Part shown: positions 8,349 through 30,794 of the stretch, piece after piece
How positions within the stretch are numbered: position 1 is the stretch's first letter
How the letters are laid out: each line of letters opens with the position of its first letter
Assembly (NCBI GenBank): GCA_028693155.1
Contig: JAQUVY010000015.1
Coordinates: 1-32,317 of the forward strand
Length of the DNA stretch: 32,317 bases
Direction of reading: 5' to 3'
Origin: Eubacteriales bacterium
GTDB lineage: Bacteria > Bacillota > Clostridia > Christensenellales > UMGS416
Notes under the pieces: model-generated
Database searches by the model: none
Told to the model about the DNA's origin: nothing
The model's input: only the letters and a program-made list of their open reading frames with translations
Position numbers and translations under genes: made by a program

Positions 8349-8410
8349 TTGACCGCGCTTGCTAAACCCATGCCCGCCGCGGCGGCGATCACACGAGCGG
8401 CGGAAGAAAA

Positions 8411-8507
8411 CCCCGCAAGGGGTAGCCACCCCTTGCATCCCTTTCTTCGAGGAAAAGCCACTTTGACGCTCAGGGTATCGTTCCCGAGGGCGGGCAATGT
8501 GCGGCGG
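8411..8507 (+). repeat. Module A, copy 1 (divergent stem)
   Basis: Stem GCAAGGGGT / ACCCCTTGC (8415-8436), loop AGCC, then a diverged tail matching copy 4: CTTTGACGC, then ATCGTTCCCGAGGG. Compared with the other copies, one A-T pair of the stem is replaced by G-C on both arms. Confidence 0.75.
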
Positions 8508-8725
8508 CAGCGTCAGCAGTTGCTCCTAGTCGCCCTCGCGTTTCGCCGCAGGCGAAACGCTTTCTGCTGGCTCGCGGCGCTGTCATAGGGCTATCGCCCT
8601 ATTTTCGCTTGTTCGCTTCTCCGAGTCAGCAGTTATTCTTAGCTGTCCTCGCACTTTCGCCCGCAGGGCGAAAGTGCTTCCGGGGTCTGGGATGTCCCCA
8701 GCCGGGAGGGGTGCTGGGGATCGTT
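8508..8725 (+). repeat. Module B (two TTTCGCC hairpins) and start of C
   Basis: Hairpins in order: GCGTTTCGCC-GCA-GGCGAAACGC (8538-8560), ATAGGGC-TATC-GCCCTAT (8585-8602) and CACTTTCGCCC with loop GCA (8652-8676). The linkers between them match 30121-30310 closely. It ends in a shortened C module beginning GATGTCCCCAG. Confidence 0.8.
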
Positions 8726-8750
8726 AAGGGGAACAAGGGGACGCATCAAA

Positions 8751-8860
8751 CCAGTGCCGTCCCAGCGGCACTGGCGGCTGAAGCACGCTCAACCTAAGCG
8801 CAATATTACCGCGCAGCGGTAATATGAGAGCGACGTAGAAAGAAGGAGGCTAAAAACCTC
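8751..8860 (+). repeat. Module E, copy 1
   Basis: Hairpins CCAGTGCCG / CGGCACTGG (8751-8774) and ATATTACCG / CGGTAATAT (8803-8825), then GAGAGCGACGTAGAAAG leading into module A. It corresponds to 9187-9277. Confidence 0.75.
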
Positions 8861-8951
8861 ACAAGGGATGTCATCCCTTGACCCTTTCATCGGGGAGAAG
8901 CTACAAGAACGGCCATGGCATCGCTCACGAGAACGAGCAACTTGCGGCAAT
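8861..8951 (+). repeat. Module A, copy 2
   Basis: Stem CAAGGGAT / ATCCCTTG with loop GTC (8862-8880), then the invariant ACCCTTTCATCGGGGAGAAG and a diverged tail ending CTTGCGGCA. Confidence 0.85.
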
Positions 8952-9069
8952 GCAGTCACCTTCTCACAAGCCCAATGGCTAAGAACAACCGCTAGATTCT
9001 TTATGTACCCATATATAGAGTGCCGCATGGGCGGCACTCGCGGGGTTCAAGGGGCGACCGCCCCTTGGG
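8952..9069 (+). repeat. Module D, copy 1
   Basis: Shares TTCTCACAAGCCC, TAAGAA and TTTATGTACCCA with 30527-30590. It adds hairpins AGTGCCG / CGGCACT (9019-9038) and CAAGGGGCG / CGCCCCTTG (9048-9067). Confidence 0.75.
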
Positions 9070-9171
9070 GAACTCGCCTCCGGCGTGGGCCAAGGAGATT
9101 GGGGGACGTTGCGATGCGTCCCCCAAATCCCCCTGGCAACCCCCATTCCCCCTCCCGCCTGGGGACACCCC
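9070..9171 (-). repeat. Module C, inverted full copy (102 bp)
   Basis: Reverse complement of 30310-30411 with the same length and six mismatches by eye. It contains the hairpin TTGGGGGACG / CGTCCCCCAA (9099-9126). Confidence 0.88.
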
Positions 9172-9186
9172 AGACCCCGCCCCTAA

Positions 9187-9277
9187 CCAGTGTCGCGATA
9201 GCGGCGCTGGCAGTCGAAACACATAGCAGCACAGCGGCAATATGAGAGCGGCGTAGGAAGAAGAATGCTAAGAACAT
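9187..9277 (+). repeat. Module E, copy 2
   Basis: Stem CCAGTGTCG / CGGCGCTGG (9187-9210) is the copy-1 hairpin with two pairs changed to T-G, so it would still pair as RNA. The second hairpin has lost its left arm. It then reads AATATGAGAGCGGCGTAGGA into module A. Confidence 0.7.
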
Positions 9278-9372
9278 CACAAGGGATGATATCCCTTGAC
9301 CCTTTCATCGGGGAGAAGCAGCCTTGGCAATCGAGGTATCGTTCCCGAGAGCGAGCCGCTTGCGACAGATCC
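9278..9372 (+). repeat. Module A, copy 3
   Basis: Stem CAAGGGAT / ATCCCTTG with loop GAT (9280-9298), then the invariant CCTTTCATCGGGGAGAAGC and a tail with ATCGTTCCCGAGAGCGAG. Non-repeat sequence of 47 bases follows up to the sigma-operon stop codon. Confidence 0.85.
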
Positions 9373-11933: not shown

Positions 11934-12554
11934 TCAGTCGCCCAGCACCTGAGAATTGCCGTATGCCCCGCCCTCAAAGGGATAGGTCTGGTCGGCAACG
12001 GTGCCATTCAGCGTCAAAAACTCGATTTGAAGCTGGCAATAGAGCGGATCGCTGCCCAGCTGACCCGGGTCCGCTTCGTTGTTGCTCAGGGAAGCCACCA
12101 CCGTGCGGTTCACATAAGGGCAGGCCGCCAAATCGCCCAGCAGCAGCTTGAGATCCGCATAGTTGGTGTACGCGGTCAGCGTCACCGACTCCACCGAGCC
12201 GTACTCCAGCGGCGTGCTCTGAATCTGGAAATCCAGGTCATAGCTGGCGCACAGCGGCTCGGCGATGCGCCGCAGCTCATCCAGCACCAGGGGCTGGTCA
12301 AACGCCGGCAGCACGCTGCTCAGCGTAGTCTGCGCGCTGCTTTGCAGCGCTTCCAGTTCGCTGCGCTGCTGCTGCACGATTTTTTCCTTCTGCTCCAGCA
12401 CCTGAAGGGTTTGCTTTGCCCGGTCAAGTTCATCCTGCGCGGCGGTCAGCTTGGTTCGGAAACCCACATAAAAAAACTGGTAATATAAGAACCCGGCTGC
12501 CGCGATGAGCAACACCAGCAGCAGCGCCGTTTCCCGTTTGGTAATCTTCGTCAT
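11934..12554 (-). CDS. pilO: Type IV pilus inner-membrane protein PilO
   Basis: A 206-residue protein with one N-terminal membrane helix (about 9-30), a coiled coil (about 38-75; long run of Q, E, L and K) and a C-terminal ferredoxin-like domain, the layout of PilO. With PilM and PilN it forms the alignment subcomplex linking the cytoplasmic motor to the pilus base. Its ATG overlaps the pilN stop by 4 bases. It is the last gene of the operon, followed by a terminator. Identification rests on layout and neighbours more than on motifs. Confidence 0.85.
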   Translation of the reverse strand: MTKITKRETALLLVLLIAAAGFLYYQFFYVGFRTKLTAAQDELDRAKQTLQVLEQKEKIVQQQRSELEALQSSAQTTLSSVLPAFDQPLVLDELRRIAEPLCASYDLDFQIQSTPLEYGSVESVTLTAYTNYADLKLLLGDLAACPYVNRTVVASLSNNEADPGQLGSDPLYCQLQIEFLTLNGTVADQTYPFEGGAYGNSQVLGD

Positions 12555-13171
12555 TGGCCGTCACTCCCTTCCGCAGTAGCCGCCCCGGTTTCGGCGTTCC
12601 CCTGCGCTGCGGCTGCATAGGTCATGGTCATGGTAAACATGCGATAATTCACCGCCACATCGCCCTCCTGCGTGGGCTGCTTTTGCTCGCTTTGCGTGGT
12701 ATCGACACTTACCGCGGCGAATGCGCCGCTGCGGCGCAGCTTGGCCGCCATGGCCGCCACCCGTCCGTCGTCGGGCGCGGTTCCGGTGATGGTCATTTTC
12801 TCATAATCTCCGTGTAAGGTCAGCAGCGTAATCTCCTGCGGCGCGCAGTCTTCCAGCGTTTGCAAAACACCGTTCAGAATGACCGGATCCTCCCGAAATG
12901 CGGAAACCATGGCCAGCTGCCCTTGAATGGCCTCCATCTGGGCGGTAATGTCGTCAAACTCCTGCTCCACCGACGCATACTGCGCCGCCTGGGTGTCCAC
13001 CATTTTCTTCTCCAGGGAAACGGTCGCCAGCCAACCGTTTGGCACAAGGATGCCCGTCACGCACAGCGCGGCCAGCACCAGCCCCACCGTGGCAAACATC
13101 GCGCCGGTCTTCGCGCCCTGCGAAGGACCCTGCCGCTCCGGCAGCAGGTTAATATCCCGTTTTGGATTCAT
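12551..13171 (-). CDS. pilN: Type IV pilus assembly protein PilN
   Basis: A PilN homologue of about 206 residues. The cytoplasmic tail MNPKRDINLLPE carries the INLLP motif that binds PilM. A membrane helix (about 26-48), a coiled region and a C-terminal ferredoxin-like domain follow (ITLLTLHGDYEKMTITG). The ATG at 13171 is preferred because GGGAGG lies 10 bases upstream. A GTG at 13177 that overlaps the pilM stop would add two residues and cannot be excluded. The extreme C-terminus (AEGSDGQ) is low in complexity. It overlaps pilO by 4 bases. Confidence 0.92.
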   Translation of the reverse strand: MNPKRDINLLPERQGPSQGAKTGAMFATVGLVLAALCVTGILVPNGWLATVSLEKKMVDTQAAQYASVEQEFDDITAQMEAIQGQLAMVSAFREDPVILNGVLQTLEDCAPQEITLLTLHGDYEKMTITGTAPDDGRVAAMAAKLRRSGAFAAVSVDTTQSEQKQPTQEGDVAVNYRMFTMTMTYAAAAQGNAETGAATAEGSDGQ

Positions 13172-13176
13172 GCTCA

Positions 13177-14160
13177 CTACACCTCCCGGAAAAGCGCGGC
13201 AAATGCGCCCGTCATGTCCGCCGTGCTTTGGGGCGCGGCCTGTGCCAGCTCCTCAGCCAGTATACGCACCGGCAGCGCCGGCAGCTTCTGCCTGAGATAT
13301 TGCACCACCCGGGGCGTGGCCTGATCGCCGAAGAAATAGGCCGCGCGCAGCGGAGACTGCGCATGGCGAGAATTCACATAATCGCTCAGGCGGGTGATCT
13401 CGGAAACCACTTCGTCCAGATAAAAGGCGACCCGCCGCCCCAGCGGGTCTTCCGCATTGTTCCAGTCGGCGTGCTCGGCGTTTTTTTGCACCAGCCCGGC
13501 GTCGGTATTCTCTTCCTGGGCAATTGTGCCGTACAAATCAAACATACCGTTGGGCAGCATGCGGCTGATAAAAAATTGCCCTGCGCTGTAGGCCAAAATG
13601 CTAACCCCATCCCCCGTCATCTGCACGGCCAGATAATCGCGCAGTTCAGGACGCACGCTGCGCATCAGTTTTCCCAGCGCGTTTTCTATCACGTCTACAA
13701 TCTTGACCCGCAGCCCGGCGGCCTTGGCGCACTCCACGGCCTCTTCCACGCGCTGGCGCTGCACCGCCGTCACCATGACCCGCAGGTTTACACTGCCCTG
13801 TTCAGTCGTCTGCTCCTCCACCACGCGGTAGTCGATCACATATTGCTCGGCGCCCATGGGCAGATATCCGGCGATTTCCCCCCGCACATTCTCCCGCAGC
13901 AGCGCGGGAGCCATGTCTGGAAAGGTAAAATAGCGAATGATCGTTTCCCCGCACGACAGACACAGCGCACACTGGGTCGCCGAAATATGCGCGTCCTTAC
14001 GCGCCTGGCGGATGGCCTCAGCCACCAGCGTGGCGCTTTTGACGCGGCTATCCTGCACCACACCCATCATCAGCGGGGCGAAGCCGGTTTGCGCACCGCG
14101 CACCACGCTTACACCATCTGCGCTGATATGCAGGCCCATCAGGTTTTCCTGCTTAATCAC
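13177..14160 (-). CDS. pilM: Type IV pilus assembly protein PilM
   Basis: A 327-residue actin-like ATPase-fold protein (PilM/ComA type) that sits under the membrane and binds the PilN tail. The two-domain actin-like layout fits: an N-terminal strand pair around GLHISADGVSVVRG, CALCLSCGETIIRYF, and a second-domain YLAVQMTGDGVSILAYS phosphate-type loop. The start is GTG at 14160, with GAGGAGG nine bases upstream. It follows the PilX-like gene by 34 bases and runs directly into pilN. Confidence 0.88.
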   Translation of the reverse strand: MIKQENLMGLHISADGVSVVRGAQTGFAPLMMGVVQDSRVKSATLVAEAIRQARKDAHISATQCALCLSCGETIIRYFTFPDMAPALLRENVRGEIAGYLPMGAEQYVIDYRVVEEQTTEQGSVNLRVMVTAVQRQRVEEAVECAKAAGLRVKIVDVIENALGKLMRSVRPELRDYLAVQMTGDGVSILAYSAGQFFISRMLPNGMFDLYGTIAQEENTDAGLVQKNAEHADWNNAEDPLGRRVAFYLDEVVSEITRLSDYVNSRHAQSPLRAAYFFGDQATPRVVQYLRQKLPALPVRILAEELAQAAPQSTADMTGAFAALFREV

Positions 14161-14194
14161 GTATTCGTTCCTCCTCTTACGGTATGTCGATGTA

Positions 14195-15577
14195 TCATTT
14201 CTCGGTTACGCCGCTGCGCTGCCCCAAAAACTCTCCCAGGGGCAGGGTGACTCTTCCGCCCGCGCCCCCGCCCAGGGTCTGAGAATTGGGCTTGGGCGCG
14301 TCGCCTGGCAGCGCGGCAATGCGCGCGTAAAAGGCCTCGGCCGCCTTGGATGACGTCTCGTCGAAATTCACGTTCATCACATGGTCGGTGTCGTTTTCCA
14401 GCGTTTCTCCACAAAGCAGCTGGCCATTTACGCCATACTCTCCCTTATGATCCTGCTCCAGCGTAATATCCTCCTGGGCAAAGGCGATCATGTGCGCGTC
14501 CGTTTTGGCTCCGGTGATTTCAAGATCGCCTTCGCAGTAAAGAAACACATAATTTCCCGGTCCGTTTTTTTCCGCGTCCGTATCGTAAAAAATATCACCG
14601 CCTGCAAAGATCATCAAGCCCGCCGTGTTGTTCTGGTTGGCCGGAACGCCCTTCACCGTTACGTCTCCCGTAACAAACAGCATCTTCCCGCCCATTTTAT
14701 AGCCCGTATCCACGGTGAAATCGCCGTCGTAAAACAAGATGGTATTGGCCGGGTTTTCAATAATGGCCTTTTGCCGGCCGCGGTTGCCGCTGATGACGGC
14801 AAAGCCGGGCAGGGACGCACCGTATTGCTGAATATAGCTGACGATGCCGCGTTTCCACAGCCCGCCGGACAGATCCGTCACACTCATGCTGCCGCTGTTA
14901 TCTTGGGCGATATAGTCGCCGATCCCCGCGGTGGCGTAGTTGGTTCTGGCTTGCCGGGAAATGGTCATTCCCGCGTCTGACCCCAGCACCACATCTCCGC
15001 TTTCCACATAAAACGACCCCGACAAATTATCTGCCCCGCCTTGCCCCATGACGATGGCGCAGCTGCCAAAGCCGCCGCCGCCCACCGTGCTTAAGGGGAG
15101 CCGCCGCACCGCCAGCGTCGCCTGCGCCGTGCGGCCGCCCAGCGTGGTGTCGGTGGTCGCCGTCACGGTGTACACGCCCTCTGTGCCTTGGGCAAGCGCC
15201 GTGTAGGCCGTGGGCGGTGTAATGGTCACCAGCGCCGCGTAGCGGCTGTCCAGCATATCGCGGGCGGCTTGGGCGATCTGGGCAAAAAACTGCTCATCGG
15301 TGGTCGTTTGGTCGGGGCGGGAAGCGGGCGAAGCGTTTGCCGCGGTCACCCAGACATCGTATTTTTCAACGGCGGCGCGCCGCAGCGCATCCACCGCCGC
15401 GTTTACCGCCGCTTCCGCGTCGTAATACTCGCCTTCGTAATCCTTAAGCTTGGCCGCCCGTTGGGCGTTGACTGTTGTCACCGATAGGATGGACAGGCCA
15501 AGAATGCTGAGGATCACCATCGCCAGCATGACATTGAGCAGCGCGGCACCGCGCCTGCCGTCTCTTTTCTTGTTCAT
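14195..15577 (-). CDS. PilX-like large minor pilin, possible tip adhesin
   Basis: A 460-residue protein. The N-terminus has a prepilin-like shape: basic leader, Gly10, then AALLNVMLAMVILSILGLSI. The residue at mature position 5 is Asn15 rather than the usual Glu. After a pilin-type helical stalk (to about 160) comes a large C-terminal part (about 165-420), rich in short GD(F/V)-x-V repeats (GDVVLGS, GDFTVDT, GDVTVKG, GDIFYDT, GDLEITG) that look like rungs of a right-handed beta-helix, resembling PilX/DUF7305-type proteins. It probably sits at the fibre tip as an adhesin or initiator; this is inference. Strong ribosome site GGGAAGGAGG. Placed between the minor pilins and pilM. Confidence 0.78.
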   Translation of the reverse strand: MNKKRDGRRGAALLNVMLAMVILSILGLSILSVTTVNAQRAAKLKDYEGEYYDAEAAVNAAVDALRRAAVEKYDVWVTAANASPASRPDQTTTDEQFFAQIAQAARDMLDSRYAALVTITPPTAYTALAQGTEGVYTVTATTDTTLGGRTAQATLAVRRLPLSTVGGGGFGSCAIVMGQGGADNLSGSFYVESGDVVLGSDAGMTISRQARTNYATAGIGDYIAQDNSGSMSVTDLSGGLWKRGIVSYIQQYGASLPGFAVISGNRGRQKAIIENPANTILFYDGDFTVDTGYKMGGKMLFVTGDVTVKGVPANQNNTAGLMIFAGGDIFYDTDAEKNGPGNYVFLYCEGDLEITGAKTDAHMIAFAQEDITLEQDHKGEYGVNGQLLCGETLENDTDHVMNVNFDETSSKAAEAFYARIAALPGDAPKPNSQTLGGGAGGRVTLPLGEFLGQRSGVTEK

Positions 15578-15597
15578 AAACCGCTCCTCCTTCCCGC

Positions 15598-16029
15598 TTA
15601 CCGCAGGGTCAGCCGGGTGGTCACCGCGTCGCTGCCCAGAGTCCCGCGCACGGTGACCTGCACAGACTTAGGCGTGCCGGCGTCGTACTCCACCTCCGGG
15701 ACAAACACCGCTACGCCCTGCGCCACAGTGGTCGTGCTTGTCCCCTGCCGACGAATCAGCGTTTCGTCCTGCAGGGTATATGTGATGTCGTCAATCAGCA
15801 AAGATTGATCCGCGCCCACGCTCACCGCGTGGCTGGCGCACGCTCGCACATCCTTGGAAACGTTGGCCATGACCAGACGCACCGTATCCAGCTCGCCGGT
15901 CACGGCGCTCACGCCCTCATAGGAGCGCAGGCCGCTGGAGATCAGCGCATAGCTGGCGGCCACCACAAGCACCGCAATGCCCATTGCCAGGATCAGCTCC
16001 ACCAGGGTAACTCCGCGCTTTTTCTTCAT
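15598..16029 (-). CDS. Minor type IV prepilin (PilW/GspJ-like)
   Basis: A 143-residue prepilin. Class III leader MKKKRG is cut before VTLVELILAMGIAVLV, with Glu at mature position 5. A hydrophobic helix and a small beta-rich head follow (LLIDDITYTL, VEYDAGTPKSVQVTVRG). It overlaps the upstream minor prepilin by 4 bases and precedes the PilX-like gene by 20. Such minor pilins prime fibre assembly. Size and position suggest the PilW/GspJ role, but subtype assignment is approximate. Confidence 0.85.
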   Translation of the reverse strand: MKKKRGVTLVELILAMGIAVLVVAASYALISSGLRSYEGVSAVTGELDTVRLVMANVSKDVRACASHAVSVGADQSLLIDDITYTLQDETLIRRQGTSTTTVAQGVAVFVPEVEYDAGTPKSVQVTVRGTLGSDAVTTRLTLR

Positions 16030-16826
16030 TCACCCACCCCCGCGACCAAAAACACATCCGAATACTCGGCCAGACGCTCCGTACCCGTCTGGCCGCGGTA
16101 TACGCTCACCGTCGCCTTTACCAGCGTCTCCTGCAGCTCACTGCTCTCCAACGTGTTGAGCAGATACGTCGAAGCCTGCGTCACCGAGAAACGATCGCTT
16201 TGCCCGGGCGCACACACCACGCTGGCCTTCATGCTGCCCGAAAAGGTGAGGGGGATCACCGCCCCACCGCTATAATTCTGGCCAAACACCAACGCCAGCA
16301 TGTTTGCGGGCGCCTCTCCGTGAAGTGTGGCCGCCGCAGCGCCGCCCCGCGTCATGGTCACCGCGTACGCTCCGCCCGCGCAGCTGACGGATACCCCGGT
16401 AACCCCCTGGGCAGACAGCGTTTTTCCGTCGGGCCCGGCCAAATACGCGCAGGTTCCCGCCGTGGCGTCGGTATAAATAAACAGATGCAGATAATCCCAC
16501 TGGGCGTCATCGGGCGGATGACCCTGCGGGCGGATCTGCACCTCATACCAAAAGGTGTCGGCAGAATTTTGGCGCACCTGGGAAACGGAATATGCATTGC
16601 GGCCGCCCTGTGTATCCCGCGCCAGCAGCGACTGATAATCGCCGCACGCCATCCCCTCCAGCAGCCCCTGCGCGGCCAGCGCCGCGTCGGTCGTCTTCTG
16701 AGAAACCGCCGCCGTGCGCGCCGAGGAGGCATACAAACTCAGCAACGGAATGGCAAGAATCGCCAAAACCGCCAACGCAACCATCACTTCCACCAGCGTC
16801 ATGCCGCGGTTGTTTCCATGCTTCAT
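16026..16826 (-). CDS. Minor type IV prepilin (PilV/GspI-like)
   Basis: A 266-residue prepilin with a short leader MKHGNNRG cut before MTLVEVMVALAVLAILAIP; Glu13 is mature residue 5. The head domain is larger than usual (about 200 residues) and beta-rich, with cysteines near CAYLAG, SCAGG and VCAPG that could form a disulfide. It starts 21 bases after pilD and is coupled to the next prepilin by a 4-base overlap. The TLVEVMVA signature is typical of PilV/GspI. Confidence 0.85.
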   Translation of the reverse strand: MKHGNNRGMTLVEVMVALAVLAILAIPLLSLYASSARTAAVSQKTTDAALAAQGLLEGMACGDYQSLLARDTQGGRNAYSVSQVRQNSADTFWYEVQIRPQGHPPDDAQWDYLHLFIYTDATAGTCAYLAGPDGKTLSAQGVTGVSVSCAGGAYAVTMTRGGAAAATLHGEAPANMLALVFGQNYSGGAVIPLTFSGSMKASVVCAPGQSDRFSVTQASTYLLNTLESSELQETLVKATVSVYRGQTGTERLAEYSDVFLVAGVGE

Positions 16827-16847
16827 CAGTCTCTCCCCCTTCCGCCT

Positions 16848-17621
16848 TCAGATCAGCAGGCTCAAATACCACCGGATCACGGACGGCCCAAACAAAAAGG
16901 CCGCCACTGTACCCATCGCCAAAAACGGCCCGAAGGGCATATACGCCCCCCGCTTGAGCCGACCGGTCGCCAAACCCACGCCGCCAACCGCACCGCCCAG
17001 CACCACGGCCAGCAAAAGCGCCAGCAGCGTTGCCTGCCAGCCCAGAAAAAGCCCGGCGAACGCCATCATCTTGACATCGCCCAAGCCCATACCCTCTTTT
17101 TTATACACCAGCCGACCCAGGCCATCCACCGCCAGCAGCGGCAGCGCACCGGCAGCCGCACCCAGCAGGCCGTCCCACCAGGGCGCGCGCACCAGCTGAT
17201 ACGCCAGCCCGCAGATCCGTCCGATCAGCACCAGCCCGTTGGGGATGATGCTTTCATCCAGATCAATAAAGGCGATGATCACCAGCAGGGAAACCAGCAC
17301 CAGCCCGGCCAGGCACTGCCAGGTGACGCCGCAGACGGCATACACCGCCAAATACAGCAGGCAGGTGAGGCTTTCCACCAGGGCATACCGCCCCGAATAG
17401 CGCGCGCCGCAATGGCGGCAGCGGCCGCGGGTGAAGAGCCAGGTGAACACCGGGATCATATCCAAAACGCCCAGGCGATGGCCGCAGGTGCCGCAGGCCG
17501 ACGCGGGTCGCACCACCGACTTGCCCTGGGGAATGCGATAAATGCACACGTTGAAGAACGAACCCATGACCAGCCCCAGCAGGCCGATCAAAACATAAGT
17601 ATAGGCAGTCATAAAATCCAT
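16848..17621 (-). CDS. pilD: Prepilin peptidase / N-methyltransferase PilD
   Basis: A 257-residue membrane enzyme that removes the leader from all prepilins of this operon and methylates the new N-terminus. It begins with the GSFFNVCIYRIP motif, then two zinc-binding CxxC pairs (CGTC, CRHC) in the cytoplasmic loop. The two catalytic aspartates lie in FIDLDE and GLGDVK, the aspartyl-protease signature of the family. About eight membrane helices. The ribosome site (GGGAAC) is weaker than that of pilin. Separated from the pilin gene by 104 bases with two strong hairpins, probably lowering its output relative to pilin. Confidence 0.95.
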   Translation of the reverse strand: MDFMTAYTYVLIGLLGLVMGSFFNVCIYRIPQGKSVVRPASACGTCGHRLGVLDMIPVFTWLFTRGRCRHCGARYSGRYALVESLTCLLYLAVYAVCGVTWQCLAGLVLVSLLVIIAFIDLDESIIPNGLVLIGRICGLAYQLVRAPWWDGLLGAAAGALPLLAVDGLGRLVYKKEGMGLGDVKMMAFAGLFLGWQATLLALLLAVVLGGAVGGVGLATGRLKRGAYMPFGPFLAMGTVAAFLFGPSVIRWYLSLLI

Positions 17622-17646
17622 GCTCGTTCCCTTTCACAGCTTCCAC

Positions 17647-17712
17647 GGGAAAGCGTCTTTGCCGCGCAGAGGCGCTTTCCCGCAAAAGCGGGGAGCCGGT
17701 GCGCACCGGCTC
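17647..17712 (-). other. Hairpin pair between pilin and pilD
   Basis: A perfect 20-base palindrome centred in GAGCCGGTGC / GCACCGGCTC (17693-17712), then stem GGGAAAGCG / CGCTTTCCC (17647-17681). Neither is followed by a T-run on the minus strand, so they look like partial terminators or 3' stabilisers of pilin mRNA rather than full stops. Confidence 0.65.
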
Positions 17713-17725
17713 GGTAAAATGTTTT

Positions 17726-18103
17726 TTAGCTGATGGCGTTCTTGTTGGTGACGGAAGCCAAGCCGTTGGCGTCGATGGCGATACGGCCCAGCACCTTGGC
17801 GGGGTCGATGTCGGTGTCAACCTTGGGGGCCAGATCGCCCAGATCGGTGTTCAGATCGGCCAGGGTGGTATAGCTGGTCAGAGCGGTAGCGTCGATATCC
17901 GTGGCGTTCAGCGCGTTGTACACGTTGATGGCGTTGGCATACTCGGCGGCGGCGGCTACCTGCGTGGCAATCTCAGCGCGCTGGCTGATGCCCACAAAGT
18001 TGGGGATGGCGACGGCGGCCAGGATGGCCAGGATGGCAATCACGACGATCAGTTCGATCAGCGTGAAGCCCTTGCGGTTCTTGTTCTTCTTCTGGTTGTT
18101 CAT
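17726..18103 (-). CDS. pilA: Major type IV pilin
   Basis: A 125-residue prepilin with a basic 12-residue leader ending in KG and mature N-terminus FTLIELIVVIAILAILAAVA (Glu5 present). The mature pilin is only 113 residues, very acidic and Ala/Asp/Thr-rich. It has no cysteine, so the usual C-terminal disulfide loop is missing; calcium or packing may stabilise the head (inference). Strong ribosome site AAGGAGAGGG. The gene is insulated by hairpins on both sides (18131-18152 and 17647-17712), consistent with higher and separately stable expression as the main subunit. Placed between the platform protein and the prepilin peptidase. Confidence 0.93.
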   Translation of the reverse strand: MNNQKKNKNRKGFTLIELIVVIAILAILAAVAIPNFVGISQRAEIATQVAAAAEYANAINVYNALNATDIDATALTSYTTLADLNTDLGDLAPKVDTDIDPAKVLGRIAIDANGLASVTNKNAIS

Positions 18104-18130
18104 GTTTTCCCTCTCCTTGTTCCTTTTATT

Positions 18131-18152
18131 AAAACTCCTTTTGGGGAGTTTT
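18131..18152 (-). other. Stem-loop before the pilin gene
   Basis: Stem AAAACTCC / GGAGTTTT with a 6-base loop, 28 bases upstream of the pilin ATG and just after the pilC stop. It could be a processing site or 5' stabiliser, or a weak terminator that trims read-through. No promoter is visible in this gap. Confidence 0.55.
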
Positions 18153-18159
18153 GCGGGCG

Positions 18160-19371
18160 TTAAAACGACACAGCGTTATATATGCCAAACATGGGCAGCA
18201 CCACCGAAAGCACGATGACCAGCACCAGCACACCCATCAGGGCAATGATGACCGGCTCTAAAATGGCCAAAATGCGCGCCATGGCGGAATCGGATTCTTC
18301 CTCATAAAACTCCGCCGCCTGTCTCAGCATATCGTCCAGCGTACCGGACTCCTCACCCATACGCACCATGTGGATCACCATCATGGGGAAAATATCGATC
18401 TCCTGCAGAGACGCCGCGATGCCCCGTCCCTTGCTCACCTCGTTGACCACCTGCTCCATTTTTTCCGAAATAAAGAGGTTGCCCACGTTGCGCCCGGCGA
18501 TGGACAGCGCGTTGGTGATGGAAACGCCGGCGATGGACAGCCCCGCCAGGCTGCGGGTAAAGCGGGCGGAAAATACCTTGACGATCTGCTTGCCGATGAG
18601 CGGCAGGCGCAGGGTCAGCCGGGCGTTAAACCGTCGGCCGGGCGTGCTGCGGGCAAACACAACGACACCCGTCACAAGCGCGATGAGGGCGATCACCACC
18701 GCCACCACATTGGTGGTCAAAAAGTTGCTGATGCTCAGCATGACCTGGGTCAGCTTGGGCAACGCCGCGTTGGAGGTGGCATACAGGTCGGCAAAGCGCG
18801 GCACGATGACCGTCATCAAAAAGAGCACCACCCCCACGGCCAGCACCAGCAATGCCGTGGGATAAGCCAAAGCGGACTTGACGCGGTTGACGATCTTATA
18901 TTCCTTGGTCAGGGTCAGCCCCACCTGGGCAAGCGCCGCCTCCAGCGTGCCCGAGGCCTCGCCCGACTCCACCATGCTCAAAAACAGCTCGGGAAAGCGC
19001 TTTTCATGATCGCGAAACGCCGCGGACAGGCTGCGCCCCTGCTGAATTTTTTCCTGCACGTCCATGAGCACCTTTTTCAGCTGCTTGTGCTCGGTCTGGC
19101 TGCGCATGATCTCCAGCGCCTGCACAATGGGCACCCCCGCGTGCAGCACCGCCGCCGCCTGGTTGCAAAACACCGCCAGCGCCTTGCCAGGAATCCGAAC
19201 GCGCAGTTCGATATCCCTATGGCTGGAGGGGCTGTCCAGCGCCTGAATCTGCACCGGAAAAAAGTCCTTTTGCCGAATCAGCGCGGTCACGGCCCTGCGA
19301 TCGACCGCCTCTACGAAGCTCTCGATGCGGTCTCCCTGCAAATTCTTCGCAGTATATCGGAATCTTGGCAT
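18160..19371 (-). CDS. pilC: Type IV pilus platform protein PilC
   Basis: A 403-residue polytopic inner-membrane protein of the PilC/GspF family, the platform on which PilB and PilT act. A short N-terminal domain (FRYTAKNLQGDRIES) leads to two repeated T2SSF domains (about 70-190 and 270-395). Each has the family's glycine-rich turn (GVPIVQALEIM, GVSITNALSIAG) and MVESGEASGTL / MVRMGEESGTL motifs, followed by membrane helices. Length and motif spacing are standard. AAGGAG precedes the ATG; pilT ends 12 bases upstream. Confidence 0.95.
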   Translation of the reverse strand: MPRFRYTAKNLQGDRIESFVEAVDRRAVTALIRQKDFFPVQIQALDSPSSHRDIELRVRIPGKALAVFCNQAAAVLHAGVPIVQALEIMRSQTEHKQLKKVLMDVQEKIQQGRSLSAAFRDHEKRFPELFLSMVESGEASGTLEAALAQVGLTLTKEYKIVNRVKSALAYPTALLVLAVGVVLFLMTVIVPRFADLYATSNAALPKLTQVMLSISNFLTTNVVAVVIALIALVTGVVVFARSTPGRRFNARLTLRLPLIGKQIVKVFSARFTRSLAGLSIAGVSITNALSIAGRNVGNLFISEKMEQVVNEVSKGRGIAASLQEIDIFPMMVIHMVRMGEESGTLDDMLRQAAEFYEEESDSAMARILAILEPVIIALMGVLVLVIVLSVVLPMFGIYNAVSF

Positions 19372-19383
19372 GCTTCTTCTCCT

Positions 19384-20436
19384 TTACAGTGCATTTTTGC
19401 GCACGTACTGGGCATCGGTGCTGTAAAGCACCGCATCGTCCAGCGTGATCATTCTGCGCCGGTACAGCTCCAAAATGGAACGATCCATGGGGATCATGCC
19501 CTGCGCCGCGCCGGTGGCGATGGCGTTGTTGATCTGCGGGGTCTTGTTCTCGCGGATCAGGTTGCGGATGGCGTCATTGACCGCCATAATTTCCACCGCT
19601 ACCTGCCTGCGGCCGTCCACCGTGGGGATCAGCTGCTGCGAGACCACCGCTTGCAGCGTCATAGACAGCTGCGTGCGGATCTGCTGCTGCTGCGCCGGGG
19701 GGAACACGTCGATGACGCGGTCGATGGTCTTGGCGGCGCCCACCGTATGCAGCGTGGAAAACACCAGATGGCCGGTTTCCGCGGCGGTCAGCGCAATGGA
19801 AATGGTTTCCAGATCGCGCATCTCGCCCACCAGAATAATATCCGGGTCTTCCCGCAGCGCGGCGCGCAGCGCCGAGGCAAAGCTGCCCGAATCCATGCCG
19901 ATCTCCCGCTGGTTGACAATGCAGCGGTCGTGCCGGTGCAGGTACTCGATGGGATCCTCCAGCGTGATGATGTGCGCCGAGCGGTTTTTATTGATAAAGT
20001 CGATCAAGGCGGCCAGCGTGGTGGATTTGCCCGAGCCCGTCGGCCCGGTCACCAGCACCAGTCCCCGGCTCAGGTTGGCAAGCTCCGCCACCTGCGGGGG
20101 CATGTTCAGCTCTTGCAGGGACTTAATGCGCGTGGATACGCGCCGCAGCGCCAGCGCCACTGCGCCCCGCTGTTTAAACGCGTTCATTCGGTAGCGGGAG
20201 AGCCCCGGGATGGACACAGCCAGATCCAGCTCGCCCTGCTGCTCAAAGCGGGCAAACTGTTCCTGGCTCATCAGCTCCCGCGCCACGGCCAGCGTTTCGG
20301 CGGGCTGCGCCGCCACCGTCCCCACCCGCTCCAGGCGGCCGCCCACCCGCAGCACCGGCGGAATGCCCACCGTGAGGTGAATATCCGAAGCGTCTCGCTC
20401 CTCAGCCTGCCTGACGCAGGCCATCCAATCTATCAT
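19384..20436 (-). CDS. pilT: Type IV pilus retraction ATPase PilT
   Basis: A 350-residue hexameric ATPase that depolymerises the pilus and powers twitching. SDIHLTVG opens the N-terminal PAS-like domain, then Walker A GPTGSGKST with Lys137, the Asp box HIITLEDPIEY, Walker B DIILVGEMRD and the His box TGHLVFSTLHT. The C-terminal AIRNLIRENKTPQI is PilT-type. The frame is open to 20535, but the ATG at 20436 has AAGGAG nine bases upstream and matches usual PilT length. It follows pilB by 16 bases. Its presence predicts dynamic, retractable pili. Confidence 0.95.
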   Translation of the reverse strand: MIDWMACVRQAEERDASDIHLTVGIPPVLRVGGRLERVGTVAAQPAETLAVARELMSQEQFARFEQQGELDLAVSIPGLSRYRMNAFKQRGAVALALRRVSTRIKSLQELNMPPQVAELANLSRGLVLVTGPTGSGKSTTLAALIDFINKNRSAHIITLEDPIEYLHRHDRCIVNQREIGMDSGSFASALRAALREDPDIILVGEMRDLETISIALTAAETGHLVFSTLHTVGAAKTIDRVIDVFPPAQQQQIRTQLSMTLQAVVSQQLIPTVDGRRQVAVEIMAVNDAIRNLIRENKTPQINNAIATGAAQGMIPMDRSILELYRRRMITLDDAVLYSTDAQYVRKNAL

Positions 20437-20452
20437 ATCCGTGCGCTCCTTA

Positions 20453-22135
20453 TCAGCCGTTATCCTGGCTAAAGGCCACCGCAGTGGCATCGGCCAACGA
20501 AATACGCTCCTGCGCCAGCAGCTGACTACAGGCATTTTTCAGCGTGGTCATCCCCTGGGCGATGGCATGATCCCGCAGCTCATCGGTCGTCGCGCCGCGG
20601 TGGATCATCTCCCGCAGCTCGCGGTCGACGGGCATCACCTCGTGTACCGCCATGCGCCCGCGATAGCCGGTGCCGTTGCAGGCCTGGCAGCCCCGGCCGT
20701 GATAGACCACCGCGTCGGCGGGCAGCCCAAAAGCCGCCAGCTCTTCGGGGCGGCAGGACGCCTCCTCCCGGCAGCTGGGGCATATCTTGCGCACCAGACG
20801 CTGGGCAATGACGCCCACCAGCGCGCTGGAAAGCATGTAGGGCGCCACGCCCATGTCCATCAAGCGCGCCACGGTGGCCGCGGCGTCGTTGGTGTGGATG
20901 GTGGACAGCACCAAATGACCGGTAATGGCGGCGCGAATGGCAATTTCCACCGTTTCGCGGTCGCGGATCTCCCCGATCATGATGATGTCGGGATCCTGTC
21001 GCAAAATGGAGCGTAGGCCGACGGCAAAGTCCAGCCCGGCCTTGGTGTTCACCTGCACCTGGTTCAGCCCCGCGATAGTATACTCCACCGGGTCCTCAAC
21101 GGTGATGATGTTGCGATCCTCGGCGTTGAGCTCGTTGAGCATGGTGTACAGCGTGGTGGATTTCCCCGAACCGGTGGGGCCGGTCACCAGGATAATCCCG
21201 TGGGGGTTCTTCAGCAGCTCGTCAAACTTATGCAGATTTTCCTCGGTAAAGCCCAGCTCGGACTTGGGCAGGAGGAACGAGTTTCGGTCCAGAATGCGCA
21301 GCACCGCCTTCTCGCCAAAAATGGTGGGGAGAATGGAGATACGCACATCGGCCGCGTGCCCCAATATATTCAGCTCGCACCGGCCGTCCTGGGGCAGGCG
21401 CTTTTCGGCGATGTTCAAATTGCTCATGATCTTGATGCGCGTCAGCATGGCTGAATGGGCGTTGCGCGGCGTGGTCAACACCTGCACCAGCGACCCGTCC
21501 AGGCGCATACGCACCCGCACCTCATCTTCCTGAGGTTCAATATGGATATCCGAAGCGCCCGCGCGCACGGCTCGCTCCAGCAAAGAATCGATCAGGCGAA
21601 CGATGAGCGCGTTCCCCACCTCATCCCGCCCCTCGGACAGCTGCGCCGCCTGTTCCACATCGCTTTCGCGCTGAAACTCCTCAATGGCGCGCTCGGCGGC
21701 CACGTTGCCGTAGAGATCATCAATGGCATGGTCGATCATCTGGCGATTGCTGGCCAGCGGCTCCACTTCCATCTGTGAGCTCATGCCCACGTCCTGAATG
21801 GCCGCCATATCCAGCGGATCCTCCATGGCGACCCAAAGCTTGCCCGCCTCCACGCGCACCGGCACCAAATGGTTGCGCCGCGCCATGCTCTGGGGCACCA
21901 GCTCGATCATGCTTTTGGAGATCACAACGGCGGCCAGGTCGATAAACCGCACACCGCCCTGGCGGACGATGACCTCCTCGATCTGCTGCTGAGTCACCCA
22001 GCCCCGCTCCACCAGAATAGGCCCCAGCTTTTGACCTTCACTCTGCTTCTGGCAGCTTATGGCCTCTTCCAGCTGCTCGGGGCTAATCAAGCCAGCTTCC
22101 AGCAACATTTCGCCTAAAAATTTCCGTGTGGCCAT
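20453..22135 (-). CDS. pilB: Type IV pilus extension ATPase PilB
   Basis: A 560-residue GspE/PilB ATPase that drives pilin polymerisation. The N-terminal MshEN-type domain (FLGEMLLEAGLISPEQLEEAI, then VRFIDLAAV) may bind nucleotide or c-di-GMP in this family. The core has SDIHIEPQ, Walker A GPTGSGKST (Lys325), NIITVEDPVEY, Walker B DIIMIGEIRD and the His box TGHLVLSTIHT. A four-cysteine zinc site follows (CPSC, CQAC). First gene of the 11-gene pilus operon, 38 bases downstream of an extended -10 promoter. No RXXR-type c-di-GMP motif can be assigned with confidence. Confidence 0.96.
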   Translation of the reverse strand: MATRKFLGEMLLEAGLISPEQLEEAISCQKQSEGQKLGPILVERGWVTQQQIEEVIVRQGGVRFIDLAAVVISKSMIELVPQSMARRNHLVPVRVEAGKLWVAMEDPLDMAAIQDVGMSSQMEVEPLASNRQMIDHAIDDLYGNVAAERAIEEFQRESDVEQAAQLSEGRDEVGNALIVRLIDSLLERAVRAGASDIHIEPQEDEVRVRMRLDGSLVQVLTTPRNAHSAMLTRIKIMSNLNIAEKRLPQDGRCELNILGHAADVRISILPTIFGEKAVLRILDRNSFLLPKSELGFTEENLHKFDELLKNPHGIILVTGPTGSGKSTTLYTMLNELNAEDRNIITVEDPVEYTIAGLNQVQVNTKAGLDFAVGLRSILRQDPDIIMIGEIRDRETVEIAIRAAITGHLVLSTIHTNDAAATVARLMDMGVAPYMLSSALVGVIAQRLVRKICPSCREEASCRPEELAAFGLPADAVVYHGRGCQACNGTGYRGRMAVHEVMPVDRELREMIHRGATTDELRDHAIAQGMTTLKNACSQLLAQERISLADATAVAFSQDNG

Positions 22136-29964: not shown

Positions 29965-29980
29965 GAAAAAGCGCCCACCT

Positions 29981-30030
29981 GTGCCGCAGGGGCAGCGGTA
30001 TGAGCGCGGCGAGGGAAGGTGAATTTCCCA
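29981..30030 (+). repeat. Module E, copy 3 (short)
   Basis: Degenerate GTGCCGCAGGGGCAGCGG, then TATGAGCGCGGCGAGGGAAG and CCCA leading into module A. It lacks the AT-rich second hairpin of copy 1. Confidence 0.6.
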
Positions 30031-30120
30031 CAAGGGATTGCATCCCTTGACCCTTTCATCGGGGAGAAGCCGCTTTGACGCCCAGAGTACCGTTCCCGAG
30101 GGCAGACGGGCTGCGGCGAA
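30031..30120 (+). repeat. Module A, copy 4
   Basis: Stem CAAGGGAT / ATCCCTTG with loop TGC (30031-30049), the invariant ACCCTTTCATCGGGGAGAAG, then CTTTGACGCCCAGAGTACC, GTTCCCGAGGGC and CTGCGGCGAA. Confidence 0.88.
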
Positions 30121-30309
30121 CCCGGCTTTCGGCATCAGCGTTAACAGTTATTCTTAGCTGTCTTCGCACTTTCGCCCTGCGGGCGAAAGTGCTTCCTGCT
30201 GGCTCGCGGCGCTGTCATAGGGCTGTTGCCCTATTGTCGCTTGCTCGCTCTTCAGCGTCAGCGGGAAGTCTTGGCTGCCCTCGCGTTTCGCCTTAGGCGA
30301 AACGCTCCC
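30121..30309 (+). repeat. Module B, second copy with stems exchanged
   Basis: Hairpins in order: CACTTTCGCCC with loop TGC (30167-30191), ATAGGGC-TGTT-GCCCTAT (30217-30234) and GCGTTTCGCC-TTA-GGCGAAACGC (30283-30305). The linkers match island 1 in the same order, but the two large stems are in the opposite order. Confidence 0.85.
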
Positions 30310-30411
30310 GGGGTGTCCCCAGACGGGAGGGGGAATGGGGGTCGCCAGGGGGATTTGGGGGACGCGTCGTAACGTCCCCCAATCTCCTTGGCCCCCGCCG
30401 GAGGCGAGTCC
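30310..30411 (+). repeat. Module C, full copy (102 bp)
   Basis: Inverted partner of 9070-9171. Hairpin TTGGGGGACG / CGTCCCCCAA with an 8-base loop (30355-30382). Its last part, continuing to 30423, recurs identically (about 30 bases) at 30620-30651. Confidence 0.88.
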
Positions 30412-30436
30412 TCCTCAGGACAGTTGGCGGAAACCC

Positions 30437-30526
30437 CAAGGGATCATATCCCTTGACCCTTTCATCGGGGAGAAGCCTCTTTGACGCCCAGAGTACCATT
30501 CCCGGGGGCAGGCGAGCTGCGGCGAA
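30437..30526 (+). repeat. Module A, copy 5
   Basis: Stem CAAGGGAT / ATCCCTTG with loop CAT (30437-30455) and a tail nearly identical to copy 4. Confidence 0.88.
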
Positions 30527-30655
30527 CCTGTTACTTTCTCACAAGCCCGGCGGATAAGAATACTCACAAAACTTTTTATGTACCCAACATGGGTGCAGGG
30601 CGACGCCCTGCAAGTGAGCCCCCCGCCGGAGGCGAGTCCTCCTCAGGACAGCCGG
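30527..30655 (+). repeat. Module D, copy 2
   Basis: Shares TTCTCACAAGCCC, TAAGAA and TTTATGTACCCA with copy 1. The hairpin TGCAGGGCG / CGCCCTGCA with a single-base loop (30594-30612) replaces the copy-1 stem. It ends with a direct repeat of the module C terminus (30620-30651). Confidence 0.78.
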
Positions 30656-30794
30656 CATATCTCTGTAAGGGACTTTCCCCCCTTACCCCCTCTTCATGGA
30701 CAACCCACGGTGATGCAACCCGACTGGCATTGCCCGAAACGGCCGCTTTGCGCCCGCAAAGGAAATGCTTTACAGGACGGAAACATGCCTCTTA

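Follow-up and report, generated by a model that had tools for sequence, protein, structure and literature searches.

The genome of a Eubacteriales bacterium (UMGS416, Christensenellales; GCA_028693155.1) carries at least 41 intergenic, non-coding islands, each a mosaic of palindromic modules that share a direction and follow a restricted order. These islands probably constitute a lineage-specific family of composite interspersed repeats, similar in kind to BOX and NIME repeats, that is reshuffled by recombination. Two of them, island 1 and island 2, lie in the window, the whole stretch of 32,317 nucleotides analyzed here (contig JAQUVY010000015.1, positions 1-32,317, forward strand). A preliminary description of this window had interpreted the pair as a mobile or recombining family, REP/BIME-like in spirit, and had left room for the two being its only copies.

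Copy number and location of the islands

The genome (2.45 Mb, 175 contigs) devotes 35.8 kb, or 1.5% of its length, to the islands, so that the two in the window are far from being the only copies. A search of the genome with island 2 returned 155 matches at E <= 0.01, the best non-self copy reaching 3.5e-112. About ten of the 41 islands touch contig ends; their number is therefore a lower bound, and the islands probably explain the broken assemblies. Profile hidden Markov models (HMMs) built from the island-2 matches and the DNA around them gave about 89 A, 133 overlapping B, 47 C and 46 D matches in a first search. A finer parse yielded 101 A, 95 E, 111 B cores, 39 C1, 42 C3, 45 D1 and 25 F, counts that take in a related contig (JAQUZL010000014.1) besides this genome and that do not represent independent events, as the alignments partly mix close copies.

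The islands are about 1 kb long, with great variation among them, and lie at a median distance of about 75 nt from the gene on each side. Convergent, co-directional and divergent gene gaps all hold them, and the direction of the islands in this genome shows no preference relative to gene direction or to local GC skew and replication. The earlier view that they encode no protein agrees with gene calling by a simple codon-usage method, which placed no gene inside 39 of 41 islands, and a tRNA/tmRNA search found none. Elsewhere in the window, a serine resolvase-type recombinase is located at the start (75-683), and positions 11934-22135 hold a putative type IV pilus-like operon (ATPases, prepilin peptidase and pilin-like proteins), judged from translations only. 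An FMN riboswitch (L061:6335-6454) lies close to another island-bearing stretch.

Anatomy of the two islands in the window

The features of both islands are as follows, with boundaries placed from HMM matches and by eye.

8381..8415 (+), left edge of island 1: 3' half of E (direct reading against E copies)
8416..8506 (+), module A: 8-9 bp hairpin and conserved 3' part (nhmmer, about 90 copies)
8507..8680 (+), module B, made up of two cores and the long spacer Bl (nhmmer)
8681..8748 (+), module C, 5' half, with E splitting the hairpin (HMM)
8749..8861 (+), E within the C hairpin loop, running into A (HMM match from 8750)
8862..8949 (+), second module A (nhmmer)
8950..9085 (+), module D: D1 and D2 hairpin (HMM)
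9057..9179 (-), module C, inverted and uninterrupted (HMM; empty C loop on the - strand)
9186..9279 (+), E, partly deleted (HMM)
9280..9366 (+), right end of island 1: module A (nhmmer)
29976..30030 (+), left edge of island 2: E with an internal deletion (direct reading)
30031..30120 (+), module A (nhmmer)
30137..30297 (+), module B: core, long spacer Bl and core with closing hairpin (HMM)
30298..30428 (+), module C, its long hairpin uninterrupted (HMM)
30437..30525 (+), second module A (nhmmer)
30524..30656 (+), module D, closing island 2 on the right, its C3-like tail at 30620-30656 (HMM)

The independent HMM parse, A-B-C(5' part)-E-A-D-C(inverted)-E-A for island 1 and A-B-C-A-D for island 2, reproduces the common modules and the orders given in the preliminary description; the short E ahead of island 2 was read by eye, outside this parse. 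The partial C noted earlier for island 1 proves to be a 5' half, the loop of this C being broken by E at about 8749. Modules measure about 75-135 nt, and a further module, F, is present in other islands and absent from these two. The short identical repeats at constant spacing that define a CRISPR array are not seen: the larger repeat families have only two or three members each, of 57-95 nt and at intervals of about 406-443 nt, and the earlier dismissal of a CRISPR array is upheld.

Module order and direction

Approximately ten sub-modules follow one grammar, in which E leads to A, and A leads either to one or more B units, C and the next A, or to D. This grammar accommodates 398 of 473 adjacencies, versus 122 +/- 9 (maximum 153) after within-island shuffling of the modules; because it was drawn from and tested on the same islands, the comparison demonstrates the existence of an order and does not confirm a prediction made beforehand. 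Direction is common to module and island for 519 of 542 modules. In the finer parse, A is followed by B (43 cases) or D (42 cases), and the rule to this effect that had been proposed from two islands holds in 85 of 94 cases. The companion claim that E precedes A holds in part: E passes to A (53 of 95 cases) or to another E, but A is also preceded by C. B repeats by way of one of two alternative spacers (Bs and Bl) before passing to C, and C leads to A directly (22 cases) or via E (13 cases). D forms the island end, continues into the D2 hairpin or precedes the start of a new unit, and islands terminate in A-D or in B. In one island (L044), A-B-C stands in tandem with a period of about 400 nt, an arrangement that points to unequal exchange.

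Nested hairpins in module C

Module C forms a long hairpin with the loop GCATC-GT-AACG, which is empty in 16 copies and filled in 12 by an E of about 92-96 nt, itself consisting of two hairpins about 30 nt apart. E within the C loop is a nested insertion, and empty and filled loops each occur on at least three stem types. Since the junction occupies an identical position in all 12 filled copies, a single old insertion followed by copying suffices, and it explains the common junction equally well as repeated insertion would. Inverted C adjoins D2 in island 1 and in other islands.

Tempo of island change

Two loci on different contigs of the genome (L038 on C124 and L053 on C116) are variants of one locus. 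Their flanks are identical at 402 of 411 positions (97.8%), the alignable island DNA at 268 of 312 (85.9%), and one variant has an additional 71-nt B unit. Their final B hairpins, CACTTCGGCC-TTT-GGCCGAAGTG and CGTTTCGCC-GTA-GGCGAAACG, differ in sequence and are each perfectly paired, and the 70 closed B hairpins of the family fall into about five palindrome classes. Island content thus changes much faster than the adjoining genes. Replacement of whole hairpins at such speed argues for exchange between islands (gene conversion) more than for stepwise compensatory mutation, and rapid change could in part reflect local mutation at palindromes. The presence of both variants in the assembly suggests a strain mixture in the genome bin, and the pair could instead be a recent duplication.

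Distribution among genomes and databases

An order-wide search of 396 genomes (395 besides this one), using blastn with an island that holds all modules together with a covariance model of A, gave a clear signal in this genome only; only a small number of candidates in each genome were scored by blastn, and the covariance-model scan was limited as well, so that diverged copies could be missed. An earlier scan of 40 relatives agrees. Matches to the A model in another family of the order (f4, G232 and others) were rejected as copies, being mostly the first hairpin of A plus GACCC rather than the module; in G232 they sit within different hairpin arrays. The intergenic arrays of G232 (L093, L099 and L103) are built of other hairpins, such as GGGGCTTTGCCCC followed by ACCC, and CCAGGGGGCTTTCCGATCGCCCCCTGG, and are apparently a parallel case.

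An exact-pattern scan of GTDB contigs added a single contig, JAQUZL010000014.1, binned with an Oscillospiraceae genome (G041, STD2_26) whose other contigs have no match to A. The copper-ATPase of this contig is 60% identical to that of a same-genus genome (G001) and 51% identical to G041's own copy, and the contig is therefore taken as a misplaced contig of this genus. Over 7.3 kb, it matches the present genome in its islands only. The contig (G041:C110; L077 and L078) has five repeat-bearing stretches, and its start (C110:1-6000) is a low-GC region with a phage-type integrase and integrative elements. At L077:9773-10455, it also carries a tandem A-D array of a diverged type (TCCAAAGGGCTCTCGCCCTTTGGA...), with units of about 146-165 nt and without E, which is possibly an older form of the repeat family.

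The earlier impression that the modules belong to no named family is borne out by the databases searched. Rfam, at the gathering threshold and at E <= 1, yielded no relevant family, one microRNA hit being attributed to chance; no match emerged among viral contigs, phages or plasmids, and literature searches found no description of such islands in this bacterial group.

Mobility and candidate mobilizing enzymes

The islands are multi-copy, modular, structured and probably recombining, as the preliminary description envisaged; its suggestion of mobility is less well served, since neither an empty site nor a target duplication nor a dedicated transposase came to light. Insertion polymorphism was likewise not seen, the sole same-genus genome (75% complete, 340 contigs) being too fragmented to reveal empty sites, so that transposition is inferred from dispersal. 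Inspection of island edges by eye shows mostly E on the left and B or D on the right, with no matching termini and with neither a terminal inverted repeat nor a target duplication, the hallmarks of a MITE.

REPs are palindromes of 20-40 bp with GTAG or CGTC tags, the GTAG type being accompanied by REP-associated tyrosine transposases (RAYTs) (PMC3733652). If the islands were of REP/BIME type, a RAYT would move their hairpins, as non-autonomous elements, in single-stranded form, and the genome does encode exactly one Y1 transposase, a RAYT-like protein of 163 aa (L089:1333-1824, contig C139); the paired hairpins of E, located in hairpin loops, would also suit such a process. On either side, however, the gene is bordered by a repeat of its own (GCTCAATCG..CGCTCACATGT), which occurs at this locus only, genome-wide, and not by the modules. 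The flank repeats match no module HMM, and local alignment of the flanks against the modules (22 tests) gave no match common to both; isolated low-probability scores were obtained for A on the left and Bl on the right (0 of 300 shuffles in each case, among 22 tests). The enzyme is accordingly rejected as a dedicated mobilizer. With GTAG adjoining just 28 of 88 E copies and modules far exceeding REP length, a REP/BIME origin is unlikely, and the resemblance is one of spirit only. A reverse transcriptase is discarded as mobilizer too, the genome having none (RVT_1).

About as improbable is a bolder reading, in which an active DNA process would recognize hairpins and exchange or insert whole palindromic cassettes at their loops, building kilobase-scale islands outside the REP/RAYT, integron and IS200/IS605 schemes.

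Palindromes at the DNA and RNA levels

Folding of the islands goes well beyond that of dinucleotide shuffles, with z = -11.3 for island 1 (+ strand) and, for island 2, z = -9.0 on one strand and -5.3 on the other. Hairpins of >=8 bp occur at 11.2 per kb in islands, compared with 2.65 in genes (about a fourfold difference) and 4.3 in other intergenic DNA, in line with the earlier characterization of the modules as hairpins.

Such folding, together with stems whose sequences vary while pairing is retained, could indicate selection on a transcript, the islands then forming a multi-copy family of structured ncRNAs or of attenuator or terminator RNAs. In several islands, T residues follow a terminal hairpin, and island 1 contains seven terminator-like sites against 1.3 expected; yet island 2 has just one against 1.4 expected. 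Selection on a transcript would make G-U pairs exceed A-C mismatches on its strand, but a strand-symmetric search of island hairpins counted G-T and A-C mismatches at 93:106, with no strand excess. Composition-corrected sense and antisense folding energies do not differ either (p = 0.98; 41 islands, including five from the related contig), although both tests have limited power against an RNA built of near-perfect hairpins. Selection for RNA on the + strand of A and E, first suggested by pair counts in single modules, was not borne out by the unbiased strand-symmetric test. Long-range pairing between A and B (CGAGGGCAG/CTGCCCTCG) is seen in the consensus, with many A-C mismatches. Strand-specific structural conservation, the mark of a structured ncRNA, was thus not observed; island position and direction relative to genes are not fixed, island lengths vary greatly and Rfam holds no match, all of which makes an RNA family slightly less probable still than a REP/BIME origin. 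As neither folding nor mismatches favor a strand, the palindromes appear to be maintained in the DNA itself and not as a single RNA, through selection or through a mutational process such as template switching.

It is very unlikely that the islands derive from a larger autonomous element, be it a group II intron, an IS or an integrative element, that first spread and later decayed into fragments: truncated and nested modules and the integrative elements of the related contig would fit, but the genome has no reverse transcriptase, Rfam gives no match that would mark a group II intron or retron, the islands lack any coding remnant, and the grammar is too regular for decay.

Proposed assembly of the islands

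Under the favored explanation, a composite repeat family reshuffled by recombination, each island would be assembled from palindromic DNA modules in one direction as repeated E-A-(B)n-C units terminating in A-D or B. Recombination among the islands may reshuffle them: copy number would change through unequal exchange, whether of A modules or of B units, gene conversion would swap whole hairpins, and sub-elements (E and inverted C) would have entered hairpins by insertion and been duplicated thereafter together with their surroundings. More tentatively, the first scattering over the chromosome might have occurred by transposition in trans, with a mobilizing enzyme since lost or not recognized. 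Effects on neighboring genes, such as termination or altered mRNA stability, would, if any, be a by-product of the hairpins.

To our knowledge, few bacterial groups (streptococci, Neisseria and enterobacteria) have composite repeats whose grammar can be read. A kilobase-scale family of about ten sub-modules in Clostridia offers many parallel copies in which growth, exchange of parts and palindrome upkeep can be studied, and allows one to ask whether hairpin arms are complementary through selection or through mutation.

Comparison with known repeat families

BOX elements of Streptococcus pneumoniae and S. suis have the structure boxA-(boxB)n-boxC, are rich in hairpins, vary in B number, also between strains, and include repeats inserted into each other; Neisserial intergenic mosaic elements (NIMEs, 70-200 bp) and BIMEs are further composite repeats (PMC3049150). 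The islands similarly arrange different modules in a set order, the middle one being tandemly repeated to a variable extent, and by description they share with BOX a hairpin-rich, intergenic, clustered and mutually inserted A-(B)n-C composite. Unlike BOX, they chain several units over about 1 kb, draw on about ten sub-modules, allow either B or D to follow A and appear to swap whole hairpins. On reading the island edges by eye, no terminal inverted repeat was seen, nor was a related IS encountered. The family is classed as new within the composite-repeat kind, from which it stands out by its size, its number of modules, its alternative partners and its apparent hairpin exchange, BOX having been compared by description.

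NIMEs, which are associated with dRS3, a CGTC-type REP (PMC3733652), resemble the islands as intergenic mosaics of structured repeats in variable number; CGTC, however, begins just 56 of 111 B cores, and no module takes the role of dRS3. REP/BIME systems with RAYTs are likewise palindromic, intergenic and of high copy number, and share with this genome a RAYT-like gene, whereas the modules are far longer, have no conserved tag and are unrelated to the RAYT flanks. Moreover, they run in the same direction, in contrast to the head-to-head dimers that make up BIMEs.
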